Assembly: GCA_021159185.1 (NCBI GenBank)
Contig: JAGGSH010000037.1
Span: 1 to 35,078 of the forward strand
DNA length: 35,078 nt
Source: a bacterium
Lineage (GTDB): Bacteria > Patescibacteriota > Minisyncoccia > Moranbacterales > UBA9337
Direction: 5' to 3'
Shown here in pieces: positions 10,343-16,303 of this stretch. The position numbers and the translations under genes are program-made. How positions within the stretch are numbered: the first letter of the stretch is position 1; each line of letters begins with the position of its first letter. Under the pieces are notes generated by a model. It made no database searches, was not told the origin of the DNA, and worked only from the letters and a program-made list of their open reading frames with translations.

Positions 10343-10648
10343 TTAAATCGCTTTTTCTTGCTTTAATTTCTTTGCTTTTTTCGCTTTGCCCCGATTATAG
10401 CCGCCGATTTCGCCATTGACCCGTATCACCCTGTGGCAAGGAATTTTGGGATCATAATTTTTGCTTAAAATATTGCCAACAGCCCGATAAGCCCGCGGCG
10501 AATTAGCTTTTTGGGCGATTTCTTTATAACTCATCGTTTTTCCTTTGGGAATTCTTTTAACTGCGCGCAAAACTTTTTCCCGGAAGCTAACAGCCGCGCG
10601 ATAAGCCGGACGACCCGGCCTTTTTCCAAAACAAGAATGCTTTTTCAT
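10343..10648 (-). CDS. ogt: O6-methylguanine-DNA methyltransferase, catalytic domain only
   Basis: 101 residues, covering only the DNA-binding and active-site domain of the Ogt/MGMT family. The acceptor motif is intact: IPCHRVI with the alkyl-accepting C71, so this is not an ATL protein, where the Cys is Trp. The helix-turn-helix RAVGNIL carries the arginine finger R55. The protein repairs O6-alkylguanine by moving the alkyl group to its own cysteine. The usual N-terminal domain is missing, as in many minimal forms; the basic tail KAKKAKKLKQEK may aid DNA binding. It lies 19 bp downstream of the unknown gene 10668-11363 and is probably co-transcribed with it. Confidence 0.88.
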   Translation of the reverse strand: MKKHSCFGKRPGRPAYRAAVSFREKVLRAVKRIPKGKTMSYKEIAQKANSPRAYRAVGNILSKNYDPKIPCHRVIRVNGEIGGYNRGKAKKAKKLKQEKAI

Positions 10649-11726: not shown

Positions 11727-12227
11727 TTACACTAAAAATAATAACACAACAAAAAAGGCTAAAACAACAAAACTCTTTGTACTCTTCTGAACATTCTTCA
11801 TTTTCTGATCTGCTATTACAGAATTTGTATAAATCTGCTCAATAATTTGTTTCTTTGCTTCATCTTCGGTTAACTTTGTAATCATTTCTGAATAATCAAC
11901 AAATTTCATACTTGCTACATGACTAAAATAAAATAAAGACTTATCTGTAAAATCATTTTTTAATCTTGGAAATATAGATTTAAAAAGGAAAAATATGCCG
12001 ACTAAAAAAGAAACGATAACACCCAGCAAAATAAAAATATAAAAACAGGTTAACCATTTTTGATAAATATGAAAAAGTTGCAAAATATCTGCTTTTTGTG
12101 AAATTACTAATCCAAAAACCAATGAATAATAAGCTGACAAAAAAGCAGTTTTTTTATCTGAAAACTTTATCCATTCACTAACACGGTTTAGTTCTGATTG
12201 TAAAAATTGTAAATTAAAGTTTTCCAT
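11727..12227 (-). CDS. pycTM: PycTM-like membrane effector of a Pycsar-type defence operon
   Basis: 166 residues. An N-terminal helix ends in SEWIKFSDKKTAFLSAYYSLVFG, which matches the WxxFADxKA-then-membrane pattern of Pycsar effectors (PycTM family). Membrane segments are at about 26-43, 58-84 and 152-166, with a charged helical region from 112 to 150. In Pycsar a cyclase makes cCMP or cUMP after phage infection, and the ligand makes PycTM disrupt the inner membrane and kill the cell. The gene is last in a minus-strand operon, 6 bp after the second cyclase gene, which is the expected context. The family call rests on the motif and neighbours, not on a database search. Confidence 0.75.
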   Translation of the reverse strand: MENFNLQFLQSELNRVSEWIKFSDKKTAFLSAYYSLVFGLVISQKADILQLFHIYQKWLTCFYIFILLGVIVSFLVGIFFLFKSIFPRLKNDFTDKSLFYFSHVASMKFVDYSEMITKLTEDEAKKQIIEQIYTNSVIADQKMKNVQKSTKSFVVLAFFVVLLFLV

Positions 12228-12233
12228 ATTTTT

Positions 12234-12950
12234 TTAAACATTAAAATACCATGTTGTATGGTGAACTTTTTGATAACCATTATTCAATGTTTTGTATTCA
12301 TAATACCAAATCCATTCATTATTATGTTTTAAAGTATTTAATGGATCTCCTTCTTTATTTACAGAATTAAAAACATGATCGCTGATCCATATGTTTTTCG
12401 GAGATTTAGCCAATTCTGATAATTCAACAGCAACATACAAAGCTATCCCTATCCAAATCAAATCTTGTTTAGTTTGATCATCTCCAGCTTTTCCGCTTTT
12501 TGCAACCATTATTGGTCCCTGCGCAATACCTATACCAAAGTCAATCTTATTTTTATTATTTTTAACTAAAATAGTGTTAATTTCATTCACAAAACCTTTT
12601 ATTTCCATAGCCGCTCTAACTGCTTTTGATGCTGCATTATCACCAACAAAGAAAGCCAGAATTCCATCACCGTTAAAACTTCTCAAATGTCCATCTCTTT
12701 TTTCAATGCAATGAATCACTGCGCGCAAAAATGATTTATGGATTTTTACGCTCCAAAAATCTGTTGCATCAGTTAAAATTTTTCTTGACTTTCTCATATC
12801 AATATAAAATATTTTTGCATGTTCTATTTTTTTAACGGTATTACCAAAAGTTAAATCATTTTTCTTTGGCACAGAATAAGTTATCGAACGATTATATGAT
12901 TCGTTCAAATATTGCTTTATTTGTTCTAACGCTTCTTGATTTGTTGCCAT
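12234..12950 (-). CDS. Class III cyclase-domain protein, second of two (probable Pycsar cyclase subunit)
   Basis: 238 residues, one cyclase homology domain. The metal-binding aspartates are present: D51 in FYIDM and D95 in NGDGI. The base-reading region reads QDLIW. The transition-state pair (Asn and Arg in G..VN.A.R) is replaced by Y172 and E176 (WIGIALYVAVEL), so a homodimer may be inactive or altered. The start is 2 bp after the stop of the first cyclase gene and the stop is 6 bp before the PycTM-like gene, so the three are one operon. It may be a regulatory or complementary half of a heterodimer with the 12953-13762 product (inference). Base composition is AT-rich compared with the flanks. 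Confidence 0.78.
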   Translation of the reverse strand: MATNQEALEQIKQYLNESYNRSITYSVPKKNDLTFGNTVKKIEHAKIFYIDMRKSRKILTDATDFWSVKIHKSFLRAVIHCIEKRDGHLRSFNGDGILAFFVGDNAASKAVRAAMEIKGFVNEINTILVKNNKNKIDFGIGIAQGPIMVAKSGKAGDDQTKQDLIWIGIALYVAVELSELAKSPKNIWISDHVFNSVNKEGDPLNTLKHNNEWIWYYEYKTLNNGYQKVHHTTWYFNV

Positions 12951-12952
12951 AA

Positions 12953-13762
12953 TTACTCTGAATTATCTGTTTTATCTAATTTCAAAATATTTTCACAATA
13001 TTCTATGCCGTGTTTTTTACACCAACCTGATGTATCTATTTTATAAGCCTTGTCGAAATCAAATTTTGGATCGTCTAAATCTATACGATTCCAGAATTTC
13101 TTTTTTTCTCCATTGGGACATCCACAACTTTTTAAAACTAATTCCGAACCGTCCGCCAGAAATACACCAAACACTCTTTCAGAAGCAATAAGCTCATTTT
13201 CATTTCCCAAAGAGGCCAATTTAGCAGCCATATTGACAGGTTTTCCTGCCCACACTTCATTTTGTTTTAGTGTTTTTCCCTCAATTTTTCTCAATCCCAA
13301 TCTTTTCACCAAAACTGTTTTCATATCCATTCCTATATGACAAGAAACTTTCTTATCATCTCCAAGATTAACTTCTGTGCTTAAAATATTTACCGAAAAT
13401 GTTTTAAAAGTTATTGCCGCACAGAAAGCATGATAAATTTTACTTTTTTCAAAAAGACCAAAAGCTCCATCACCCTTAACATCAATATAAGATGCGTCAA
13501 AATGGTTTAATATTTTTACCGCGGTGTCTGTAAAATATTGATAAATACTTGCGGTAAATTTATCTTGCTTTTGCGCGCTTAATTGAGTGGAGTTTTTCAT
13601 GTCTATAAAGACACATACCACATCGTCAATTCTAAACCATTTATTTGTTTCTAAAGGAAAATCATCTCCTTGAGGAATCTTGTCTTTTGGCTCTATCTTT
13701 TCTCCTTCTTGATACCTCTTTTGAGCTTCATTTATAATATTTTGGATTTCTTCAATAAACAT
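12953..13762 (-). CDS. pycC: Class III nucleotide cyclase, first of two (probable PycC-like)
   Basis: 269 residues. An N-terminal helical part (1-45) precedes the cyclase domain: VFIDMKNST with metal-binding D54, VKGDGAF with D98, and GKPVNMAAKLASL with the transition-state N177 and a Lys (K181) where Arg is usual. A C-terminal region carries CGC (213-215) and WCKKHGIEYC (247-256), possibly zinc-binding. The substrate-reading position is NEVW instead of the YDIW of adenylate cyclases, which fits a non-adenylate substrate. In Pycsar the product would be cCMP or cUMP. It is the first gene of the cyclase-cyclase-PycTM operon and is divergent from the lexA-methyltransferase gene across 93 bp. A TATAAT lies only 2 nt before the ATG, so its promoter is unclear. 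Confidence 0.82.
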   Translation of the reverse strand: MFIEEIQNIINEAQKRYQEGEKIEPKDKIPQGDDFPLETNKWFRIDDVVCVFIDMKNSTQLSAQKQDKFTASIYQYFTDTAVKILNHFDASYIDVKGDGAFGLFEKSKIYHAFCAAITFKTFSVNILSTEVNLGDDKKVSCHIGMDMKTVLVKRLGLRKIEGKTLKQNEVWAGKPVNMAAKLASLGNENELIASERVFGVFLADGSELVLKSCGCPNGEKKKFWNRIDLDDPKFDFDKAYKIDTSGWCKKHGIEYCENILKLDKTDNSE

Positions 13763-13794: not shown

Positions 13795-13833
13795 TTGACT
13801 TTCTATTTTCTTTCTATTATACTATAAGTATAA
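13795..13833 (+). promoter_or_regulatory. Promoter and palindromic operator of the lexA-methyltransferase gene
   Basis: A -35 TTGACT (13795-13800), a 17-bp spacer and a -10 TATACT (13818-13823) form a near-consensus promoter. A perfect 17-bp palindrome TTATACTATAAGTATAA (13817-13833) covers the -10, where a repressor would block transcription. Autoregulation by the LexA domain is the natural reading. The site also lies 55-71 bp from the start of the divergent cyclase operon, so shared control is possible. It differs from the CTGT..ACAG and GAAC..GTTC boxes. Confidence 0.7.
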
Positions 13834-13855
13834 AGTTAATAAAAAATAAAGTCAA

Positions 13856-15385
13856 ATGTTTATGCTTACAAAAAGACAAAAACAAGTTTTAGATTTTATA
13901 TCCTCATATTACAAAAAGAAAGGGTACTCCCCTTCTTTAGAAGAGATATGTAAAAGATTTAAACTTGCTTCTGTTTCTACCGCCCATTTTCATGTTAAAA
14001 AACTGCAAGATTTGGGATTTATAAACAAACAAGACAACAAGCCGAGATCAATCAACATTTGTGAAAATGAAAAAATGGTTAATATACCGCTGCTTGGTTT
14101 AATTGCCGCTGGACAACCAATAGAGGCAGTTGAAAATAAAGAAATAATAGCAGTGCCAAAAAGCAAAATGTCTCATGCTGGGAAATTTTACGCTTTGCGA
14201 GTAATTGGCGACAGTATGATTAACGAAAATATAAATGACGGCGATTTAGTTTTAGTCAAACAACAAGATACTGCTGAAAATGGGCAGAAAGTTGTTGCGC
14301 TTATAGATAATTATGAAGCAACCTTAAAAAAATTTTATAGAGAAAAAAATCATATAAGGCTACAACCCGCAAACAAAACTATTGAACCAATTATTATAAA
14401 AAGTGATAGGGAGTTAACAATACAAGGTATTGTTATTGATGTGATAAGAAATGAGGAAGATTTGCAGGCGGAAAAACTTTTTGAAAGTAAGGAAATAAAA
14501 AGAAATAAAACACTTCCTTTAAATAAGATTATTTTGGGCGATGCCGCAGAAGAATTAAAAAAACTGCCAAATGAAAGTTGCGATGTGATTATTATTGATC
14601 CCCCTTATAACATTGGGAAAGATTTTGGAAATAACCAAGATAAACGCGAATTAAAAGAATATATTAGTTGGTGTAAAGAATGGATAAATGAATCAATTCG
14701 CGTAATGAAACCAACAGGCACGATGTTTATTTATGGATTCAGTGAAATACTAGCTTACCTTTCTGTGGAGATTCCAATTAATAAACGCTGGCTTATTTGG
14801 CATTATACAAACAAGAATGTTGCTTCGCTGAATTTTTGGCAAAGAAGCCATGAAGCGATAATTTGCGCTTGGAAAGATAAACCTATCTTTAACAGAGATG
14901 ATGTAAGAGAACCATATACCGAAGGATTTATCAATGGAGCAGCCGGGAAAAAAAGAAAAGCAACAGTTGGTCGTTTTAGCAAAGGAGATAAAGAGACTAT
15001 TTATAAAGCACACGAAAATGGGGCACTTCCAAGAGATGTAATAAAGGTGCCTGCGCTTGCTGGTGGCGCTGGTATGACAGAACGATGGTTTTTGTGTAAG
15101 ACATGTGACGATGTATTTCCTCCAAATGAATTAAAAAATCATCGTGACCATGAAATTATAAAACACCCAACACAAAAACCGCTGGAATTAACACGAAAAT
15201 TGATTAAATCAGCACGACCCGGCAAAGAAGGGGTTATTCTCGTGCCATTTTTGGGAAGTGGCTCTGAATGTGTAGCCGCAAAAGAACTTGAACAAAATTA
15301 TATTGGATTCGAAATAAATCCGGATTATGTGCGCATAGCTAAAAAATGGCTTAAAGAAACAAAAGTAATGAAAACATTATTTTAA
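13856..15385 (+). CDS. LexA repressor fused to adenine-N6 DNA methyltransferase
   Basis: 509 residues in one uninterrupted frame. Residues 3-68 are a LexA winged helix (LTKRQKQVLDFI.. start). Residues 75-198 are an S24 autoprotease with cleavage site A85-G86, nucleophile S120 (GDSM) and base K158 (EATLKKF). After a short linker (199-222) comes a beta-class methyltransferase: motif IV DPPY at 248-251, a target-recognition region, HPTQKPLEL at 437-445 and the SAM loop FLGSGSE at 465-471. C414/C417 with H429/H432 may bind zinc. DPPY indicates N6-adenine. The domains suggest a self-repressing methyltransferase released by RecA-type cleavage (inference). The 3' end overlaps the convergent restriction gene by 9 bp. 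ATGs at 13856 and 13862 are both possible starts. Confidence 0.92.
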   Translation: MFMLTKRQKQVLDFISSYYKKKGYSPSLEEICKRFKLASVSTAHFHVKKLQDLGFINKQDNKPRSINICENEKMVNIPLLGLIAAGQPIEAVENKEIIAVPKSKMSHAGKFYALRVIGDSMINENINDGDLVLVKQQDTAENGQKVVALIDNYEATLKKFYREKNHIRLQPANKTIEPIIIKSDRELTIQGIVIDVIRNEEDLQAEKLFESKEIKRNKTLPLNKIILGDAAEELKKLPNESCDVIIIDPPYNIGKDFGNNQDKRELKEYISWCKEWINESIRVMKPTGTMFIYGFSEILAYLSVEIPINKRWLIWHYTNKNVASLNFWQRSHEAIICAWKDKPIFNRDDVREPYTEGFINGAAGKKRKATVGRFSKGDKETIYKAHENGALPRDVIKVPALAGGAGMTERWFLCKTCDDVFPPNELKNHRDHEIIKHPTQKPLELTRKLIKSARPGKEGVILVPFLGSGSECVAAKELEQNYIGFEINPDYVRIAKKWLKETKVMKTLF

Positions 15386-16069
15386 TTTTTGATCTATTTC
15401 CTGTTTCTTTGGCAAAAATGCTTCTTGTGTAAATACAACAAATCCATTATCAAATGCTTCTGTCCTTGTATCCTCCAAAAATCTTAAATAAGGTCTGCGA
15501 TATTCCCCGTCTTTCTTTTTCGGATCAGACAAACAAGTAGGTACCTCGTAAAAAATATCAATCGCCTCTCCTTCTAACGATCCTTTGCGTGGCAATGGCC
15601 TGTTACTTTTTACTCCGGCAAAGCTGGTTTTCTTTACTTGATAATTAAGGAAGTGTCCTCTGTATTCTACGCGAATATCAGCCCCTTGATGATCCAGTTC
15701 GGCTGACATAAATACAGATCCCTCGCCAAAAACTGATTCAGCTGCATATCCAGCATGTATTTGGGTTATTAATCCTGTCCATGTTCTGCAAATTCTTGCT
15801 TTTAAGCCACGCGAGAAACAATCTTTGCACATTGTTGTTTTTATACGAAACTGCTCTGCTGCTAATCCCTTTTCTTTTAAATACCTCTCGTAAAACTCAT
15901 CAAATGTAAGAAATTTTTTCTCATCCCAATAAACAGTATAAAGTAATTCAATTGCTTGAATATCTTTTGGCAAGTCCATTTCTACAATTTTGATATGACT
16001 ATACCGCCTGCGATACTCTGCAAGTGGAACTGTTTTTAAAAAATTTGTAAATTCTTGTAATTTCGTCAT
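15377..16069 (-). CDS. Probable restriction endonuclease of the LexA-methyltransferase system
   Basis: 230 residues. No exact family recognised, but a PD-(D/E)XK-like core can be read: E111, then D126 and D131 (ELDHQGADIRVEY), then a strand with Q144-V-K146 (LNYQVKKT), where Gln stands in place of the usual Glu. C81, C84 and C94 could bind metal. The gene is convergent with and overlaps the methyltransferase gene by 9 bp, and it is preceded 2 bp upstream by an XRE controller gene, which is the classic type II restriction layout. The target would be the sequence protected by the fused methyltransferase. The function is inferred mainly from position plus this motif. Confidence 0.68.
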   Translation of the reverse strand: MTKLQEFTNFLKTVPLAEYRRRYSHIKIVEMDLPKDIQAIELLYTVYWDEKKFLTFDEFYERYLKEKGLAAEQFRIKTTMCKDCFSRGLKARICRTWTGLITQIHAGYAAESVFGEGSVFMSAELDHQGADIRVEYRGHFLNYQVKKTSFAGVKSNRPLPRKGSLEGEAIDIFYEVPTCLSDPKKKDGEYRRPYLRFLEDTRTEAFDNGFVVFTQEAFLPKKQEIDQKLK

Positions 16070-16071
16070 AG

Positions 16072-16299
16072 TTATTTTTTATTTAAGAACCAATCCAATT
16101 TCTTTTTATACAATTTTGCAAACATTTCTAACTCAACAATATCTAACCGACGTTCACCACGTTCAACTTTTGATACAAATGATTGTGGCTTATTCAATTT
16201 TTTTGCAACATCAATCTGTGTCAAGCCAGATTCTTGACGGGCTTCATATAGATTTTGCAAAACAAGCTTATATTTTGACGAATAAATTGACTTACTCAT
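16072..16299 (-). CDS. XRE-family controller protein (C-protein-like)
   Basis: 75 residues, nearly all one helix-turn-helix domain of the Cro/CI type (about 12-68; TQIDVAKKLNKPQSFVSKVERGERRLDIVELEMFAK). The size and the place 2 bp upstream of the restriction gene match the controller proteins of type II restriction systems, which delay endonuclease production until the methyltransferase has acted. Its promoter carries an inverted repeat (CCTATT..AATAGG, 16318-16343) that could be its operator. The -10-like TATGCT ends about 8 nt from the ATG, so the mRNA is nearly leaderless. Confidence 0.85.
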   Translation of the reverse strand: MSKSIYSSKYKLVLQNLYEARQESGLTQIDVAKKLNKPQSFVSKVERGERRLDIVELEMFAKLYKKKLDWFLNKK

Positions 16300-16303
16300 A
16301 TAT

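Follow-up and report, generated by a model that had tools for sequence, protein, structure and literature searches.

A LexA head fused to the methyltransferase of a TaqI-type restriction system in Patescibacteria, and its predicted role as an autorepressor and damage-responsive switch

An open reading frame of 509 amino acids, at 13856–15385 on the forward strand, joined a LexA repressor to a DNA methyltransferase. It was situated in a window of 35,078 nucleotides (i.e., the whole stretch of DNA that was analysed), which is contig C11 of a patescibacterial genome with 936,727 bases in 42 contigs, 96% complete. Translation showed neither a stop nor a frameshift between the start and end of the frame, and comparison with relatives made the ATG at 13862 (MLTKRQK) the more likely true start. 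Three domains were matched with scores far over the Pfam cut-offs, all on the forward strand: a LexA winged-helix DNA-binding domain (LexA_DNA_bind, residues 2–64; residues 3–64 at 13862–14047; 60.9 bits), in which F45 belongs to the recognition helix; a LexA S24 autoprotease domain (Peptidase_S24, residues 78–194; 14087–14437; 109 bits); and a beta-class N6_N4 methyltransferase domain (N6_N4_Mtase, PF01555, residues 243–497; 14582–15346; 134 bits). Residues 2–199 also matched the NCBIfam lexA equivalog TIGR00498, scoring 197.6 bits where the cut-off is 110.95. Within the S24 domain were the cleavage pair A85-G86 (14108–14113) and both members of the catalytic dyad, S120 (14213–14215) and K158 (14327–14329), while the methyltransferase carried DPPY at residues 248–251 and then FLGSG, starting at residue 465. 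An earlier, sequence-only reading had described one frame with a full LexA followed by a complete beta-class methyltransferase, and catalytic residues in both halves at these positions; both descriptions were borne out. That reading had regarded a stop or frameshift between the halves as the flaw to look for, and the frame contained none; relatives share it in the same fused form.

By sequence, the nearest solved structures were LexA (3k2z) and the m6A methyltransferase M.BceJIV, and the best matches of the predicted structure were likewise to LexA and to beta-class N6-adenine methyltransferases. Solved relatives of the LexA half included LexA on the RecA filament (8trg, 8gms). Prediction quality was good for the winged helix and, over the S24 domain and the bulk of the methyltransferase, fair; pTM was 0.52, such that the placement of the domains relative to each other is unreliable. 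Residues 86–94, beside the cleavage site, were disordered, as were residues 201–213 in a flexible linker at about residues 201–214 (14456–14497, forward strand; pLDDT <50). In comparisons with close relatives, dN/dS was approximately 0.05–0.15 in the winged-helix, S24 and methyltransferase domains. For the S24 domain, dN was 0.06–0.09 while dS was mostly 1.1–1.5; by these rates the domain is under purifying selection. That the frame might be an artefact, produced by chance read-through or by an assembly join of two adjoining genes, was given a negligible probability and rejected, because dozens of independent metagenome-assembled genomes (MAGs) carry the identical fused frame and dN/dS is low. 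The fusion was therefore interpreted as real and selected.

The 3' end of the methyltransferase overlapped by 9 bp with a convergent gene on the reverse strand (15377–16069), encoding a TaqI-family restriction endonuclease (102.8 bits). A PDB match of this endonuclease to cytochrome P450 was dismissed as chance. Directly upstream of the endonuclease gene, on the same strand, a small XRE-type HTH gene was read from the sequence (approximate ends 16074–16301); its product of about 75 amino acids was C-protein-like, and homologues were found beside the endonuclease gene in 15 relatives. A methyltransferase gene adjoining that of its cognate endonuclease characterizes a type II restriction-modification system, and a small HTH controller gene placed immediately before the endonuclease gene is the hallmark of control by a C protein. 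Judged by this gene order, the fusion gene is the modification half of a TaqI-type type II restriction system.

The recognition site of the TaqI family is TCGA. This tetramer occurred 13 times in the window against an expectation of 59 (ratio 0.22), and showed the strongest depletion among 12 palindromic 4-mers, both here and in relatives with a TaqI-family endonuclease; the depletion was weaker with other endonucleases. Among the relatives, the observed/expected ratio at fusion loci was 0.48 where the endonuclease belonged to the TaqI family and 0.87 where it was of another kind. The depletion suggests that the restriction system of the methyltransferase gene has probably been active in this lineage.

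Upstream of the fusion gene and divergent from it, PADLOC identified a Pycsar-like defence set on the reverse strand (11727–13762), in which a single PycTM effector accompanied two cyclase-like genes (PycC, 191 and 328 bits). A Pycsar-like set with two different cyclases for one effector seems unusual. A gene with an Ogt-type O6-methylguanine DNA methyltransferase domain (10343–10648, reverse strand) was also present near the defence genes.

The fusion gene was preceded by a sigma-70-type promoter on the forward strand (TTGACT, 17 bp, TATACT; 13795–13823). Its mirror image (TTGACT, 17 bp, TATACT; 13827–13855, reverse strand) was situated 3 bp from the forward -10 box; this divergent promoter faces the Pycsar genes, and it and the promoter of the methyltransferase gene overlap. 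A similar reverse promoter element accompanied 24 of 79 fusion promoters. At this locus, both promoters might be shut by a LexA dimer bound to the operator, or the two might compete.

A predicted operator, TTCTA-N6-TTCTA, occupied the spacer between the -35 and -10 boxes (13801–13816, forward strand). It is an 11-bp direct repeat, which took the place of the simple palindrome that was sought first. Most fusion genes had an 11-bp direct-repeat operator beside the -10 box, and a perfect match to two half-sites was present in 62 of 78 fusion promoters, compared with 0 of 159 other genes of the same loci. The half-site varied with residue 45 of the recognition helix. Where this residue was F, Y or H, the half-site was TTC(T/G)A (45 of 45); where it was E or Q, the half-site was TTCGG, CTCGG or TTAGG (23 of 24), making an agreement of 68 out of 69. 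In a LexA tree, residue 45 and half-site class each changed eight times, with weak branch support and only one pair on fully supported branches, which leaves the count of independent changes uncertain. Boxes also differed where two fusions occurred together: genome G265 had one fusion with F45 and TTCTA (L033) and another with E45 and TTCGG (L052), while a single contig (L088) bore both H45 with TTCTA and E45 with TTCGG. Given the operator in the promoter and its covariation with residue 45, it is nearly certain, on computational grounds, that the LexA half represses its own methyltransferase gene by binding the direct repeat, and the autorepression proposed from the sequence alone thereby gained computational support. 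Since the endonuclease side has a controller-type HTH gene of its own, the methyltransferase gene is predicted to be the only one of the two under the fusion operator.

A further element, the 9-mer TGTGGATAA, which corresponds to the DnaA-box consensus, preceded 49 of 79 fusion genes (L075–L119, L036, L038, L039, L043, L049, L051, L052 and L058) and 0 of 159 controls. Its orientation was constant and its distance to the first operator half-site nearly so, at 20–26 or 11–12 bp upstream, and it hints at replication coupling of these promoters. The element was absent upstream of the window's own fusion gene, and it also precedes unrelated genes such as nrdR and those for pilins, where a TATAAT follows after about 30 bp. 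For these two reasons, cell-cycle control through a DnaA box was dropped from the core claim.

At least 66 LexA-methyltransferase fusions were found, nearly all patescibacterial. Among 380 patescibacterial genomes there were at least 21 fusions in 20 genomes, which is a lower bound because scoring was limited to about four candidates per genome at most. A scan of named genomes identified 46 further loci of the window's subfamily (one being the G265 locus); nearly all were in Patescibacteria, which also accounted for nearly all named close relatives of the fusion. The two exceptions, from Ignavibacteria and Omnitrophota, were both on short MAG contigs that may be misbinned. A convergent TaqI-family endonuclease abutted the fusion in 35 of the 46 subfamily loci, and nine more had a different convergent open reading frame of 200–269 amino acids. 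Methyltransferases under a LexA head came from three Pfam families, PF01555, D12 and m5C (the last, PF00145, at L049), and the adjoining endonucleases from at least eight: TaqI, MamI, BglII, HindIII, ScaI, BsaWI, EcoRV and MvaI/BcnI. On this distribution the fusion is a recurrent module of Patescibacteria across several methyltransferase families, and no single curiosity.

The same methyltransferase was found without LexA in other phyla and on viral contigs, where 80 of the 80 matches kept covered the methyltransferase part alone. Fusions on plasmids or phages were not found: among the plasmid matches listed, each covered one half, and the sole phage match to span both halves, in Marinitoga phage MPV1, consisted of two separate genes, the first CI-like and the second a methyltransferase. 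Two variant arrangements were also recorded. In L074, a frame of 1129 amino acids starting from 5004 combined LexA and a beta-class methyltransferase with a further N6-methyltransferase or type IIG-like part, and a separate TaqI-family endonuclease was not found at that locus. In L057 (5461–6054) and L058 (5646–6236), stand-alone or truncated LexA genes that belong to the same lineage and share the operator adjoined methyltransferase and restriction-like genes.

The catalytic residues of the autoprotease were conserved throughout. All 66 full fusions, from the three methyltransferase families, kept A85, G86, S120 and K158, while residue 45 varied freely in the same proteins. Several relatives (L034, L121, L122 and L125–L128), some of them in Saccharibacteria, had kept the winged helix and wholly lost the S24 domain; a mutated or broken S-K dyad was seen in none of the fusions and relatives. 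This all-or-nothing pattern, together with the invariant residues, argues for a protease in use, as a prediction from conservation that falls short of proof of cleavage. Since the S24-less relatives retain a similar operator, cleavage appears to be dispensable in some such systems.

Type II restriction endangers its host whenever methylation lags. The preferred interpretation, given a probability of roughly 0.66, is that the locus encodes a TaqI-type type II system whose methyltransferase is its own damage-cleavable repressor, within a feedback loop that acts against self-restriction. The LexA half, bound to TTCTA-N6-TTCTA in the promoter, would keep expression of the methyltransferase at a set level. 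The trigger would be RecA on single-stranded DNA, arising, for example, when the endonuclease cuts at under-methylated TCGA in the host genome. The LexA half would then cut itself at A85-G86, releasing the DNA-binding head and opening the methyltransferase promoter. Such damage-triggered self-cleavage is predicted from what is known of the family and from the catalytic residues, which every full fusion has kept. The remaining C-terminal part, made up of the S24 domain and the methyltransferase, would stay active, and so the old enzyme would be spared while new enzyme was made. The endonuclease would be expressed from its own promoter with its controller-type HTH gene; being outside the fusion operator, it would not follow, and the ratio of methyltransferase to endonuclease would rise until the breaks were repaired and repression returned. 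In a naive host, the empty operator would allow synthesis of the methyltransferase first.

Damage-triggered cleavage is likely to raise the methyltransferase over the endonuclease. Of the damage response that the sequence-only reading had envisaged, its plausibility was upheld, both by the catalytic residues in 66 of 66 fusions and by a RecA gene in the window's genome, while cleavage and methylation themselves retain the standing of predictions. Imbalance of restriction-modification systems and post-segregational killing do induce SOS (PMC3874152). The model could also carry a cost, in that methyltransferase raised during phage-induced damage would shield phage DNA too.

Other explanations of the fusion were weighed against this interpretation. 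The LexA half could be a plain autorepressor, consisting of a DNA-binding head and a dimerisation body in which self-cleavage is vestigial or irrelevant, and providing homeostasis of the SsoII/EcoRII type. This would account for an operator in the promoter; the S24-less relatives, with their similar operator, show that a winged helix alone suffices, and autorepressing methyltransferases are known (PMC3874152, PMC12707154). This explanation is nonetheless unlikely, given that the A-G pair, S and K are kept throughout the 66 fusions although residue 45 varies, and that where the function was dropped the whole domain went with it, rather than the dyad being mutated. If the protease is in use, its trigger might be something other than damage and RecA, such as a phage antirepressor, a peptide or a cofactor, and the fusion would then sense phage and switch off or reprogram the defence island. 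S24 repressors outside SOS can respond to other inducers, the gene is situated in a defence island beside Pycsar, and the divergent promoters towards Pycsar overlap that of the methyltransferase. However, the fused part is a full match to the LexA equivalog and not of the phage CI or C2 type, and LexA bound to a RecA filament (8trg, 8gms) is among its solved relatives; this explanation was considered quite improbable.

The fusion might instead be the SOS master repressor of the cell, with an appended methyltransferase and many repair genes as targets. No other protein of the window's genome matches LexA nearly as well: the second LexA-like protein, of 222 amino acids with a C-G cleavage pair and S and K present (L002, 629–1297; contig C25 of G000), falls below the lexA equivalog cut-off. 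However, the gene of that protein has its own palindrome, AGTGATATAATATCACT, over the -10 box; in other genomes, fusions coexist with canonical LexA. Searches of the genome for the fusion operator with its -10 box gave one perfect copy in 937 kb and otherwise background level, and the operator was absent from the upstream region of recA. A multi-gene SOS regulon under the fusion was therefore not in evidence, and the role of host SOS repressor was rejected as very improbable. With a single exact copy of its operator in the genome, the fusion is better interpreted as a private switch than as the host's SOS LexA. A patescibacterial SOS network has reportedly been described by Sanchez-Osuna et al. 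in 2017.

Among known systems, the fusion comes closest to regulatory methyltransferases that bear an N-terminal HTH, of which it would be a variant with a LexA autoprotease head. M.EcoRII, M.SsoII and M.Ecl18kI resemble the fusion in having an N-terminal DNA-binding head on a type II methyltransferase and an operator that overlaps its own promoter, through which such enzymes autorepress (PMC3874152; PMC12707154, Fig. 4B). Unlike these, the fusion has a complete LexA with an intact autoprotease for its head, such that repression could be released by cleavage; LexA heads occur on several methyltransferase families, the window's own being PF01555 and not of the m5C family to which the SsoII/EcoRII type belongs, and the endonuclease is encoded in a convergent unit of its own, alongside a controller-type gene. 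In this last respect the locus is comparable to the C-protein-controlled systems PvuII and Esp1396I, where the endonuclease gene is immediately preceded by a small HTH gene, the methyltransferase has a separate unit, and the timing of restriction is controlled (PMC3874152, PMC12707154); here, however, the methyltransferase has its own LexA repressor rather than relying on the C protein.

With LexA of the SOS response, the fusion shares the winged helix, the S24 domain with A-G, S and K, and a predicted operator in its own promoter. Canonical patescibacterial lexA promoters in this dataset had an 11-bp direct-repeat box, and the alphaproteobacterial LexA box, GTTC-N7-GTTC, is a direct repeat with the geometry of the fusion operator (PMC8565304). 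It differs from SOS LexA in carrying a methyltransferase and having a single private operator, and in the letters of the subfamily box, where TTCGG gave way to TTCTA as residue 45 changed. In function, the fusion may be likened to the restriction alleviation of EcoKI by ClpXP, which spares the host genome upon damage or at unmodified sites. Type I alleviation destroys the R subunit via ClpXP, and LexA cleavage is not needed (PMC11109961), whereas the route predicted here, for a type II system, is more methyltransferase through a LexA switch. No report of LexA, or any other self-cleaving head, on a methyltransferase was found in the full-text literature searched, although prior notice is possible; a 2025 review of restriction-modification does not mention LexA. 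The reviews found on these systems name promoter methylation, N-terminal HTH domains, antisense RNA and C proteins as regulators, and no damage-cleaved switch.

A wider interpretation is that a swappable LexA head, placed on unrelated type II methyltransferases, makes restriction-modification systems private sensors of self-restriction, each with an operator code of its own, and that through the mirror-image promoters the same damage signal opens the divergent Pycsar genes at this locus. This was proposed tentatively and is on balance doubtful; if true, a single cleavage would both shield the genome and arm a second defence. The feedback of damage on the balance between methyltransferase and endonuclease is little understood. 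If the preferred interpretation of a damage-cleavable repressor is correct, it would couple the supply of methyltransferase directly, at the genetic level, to DNA breaks, a coupling found repeatedly on different methyltransferases alongside at least eight families of restriction enzyme. The code relating residue 45 to the half-site, and the genomes with two boxes, would offer orthogonal, testable LexA switches, and the whole points to regulated DNA-damage biology in a mostly uncultured bacterial group.
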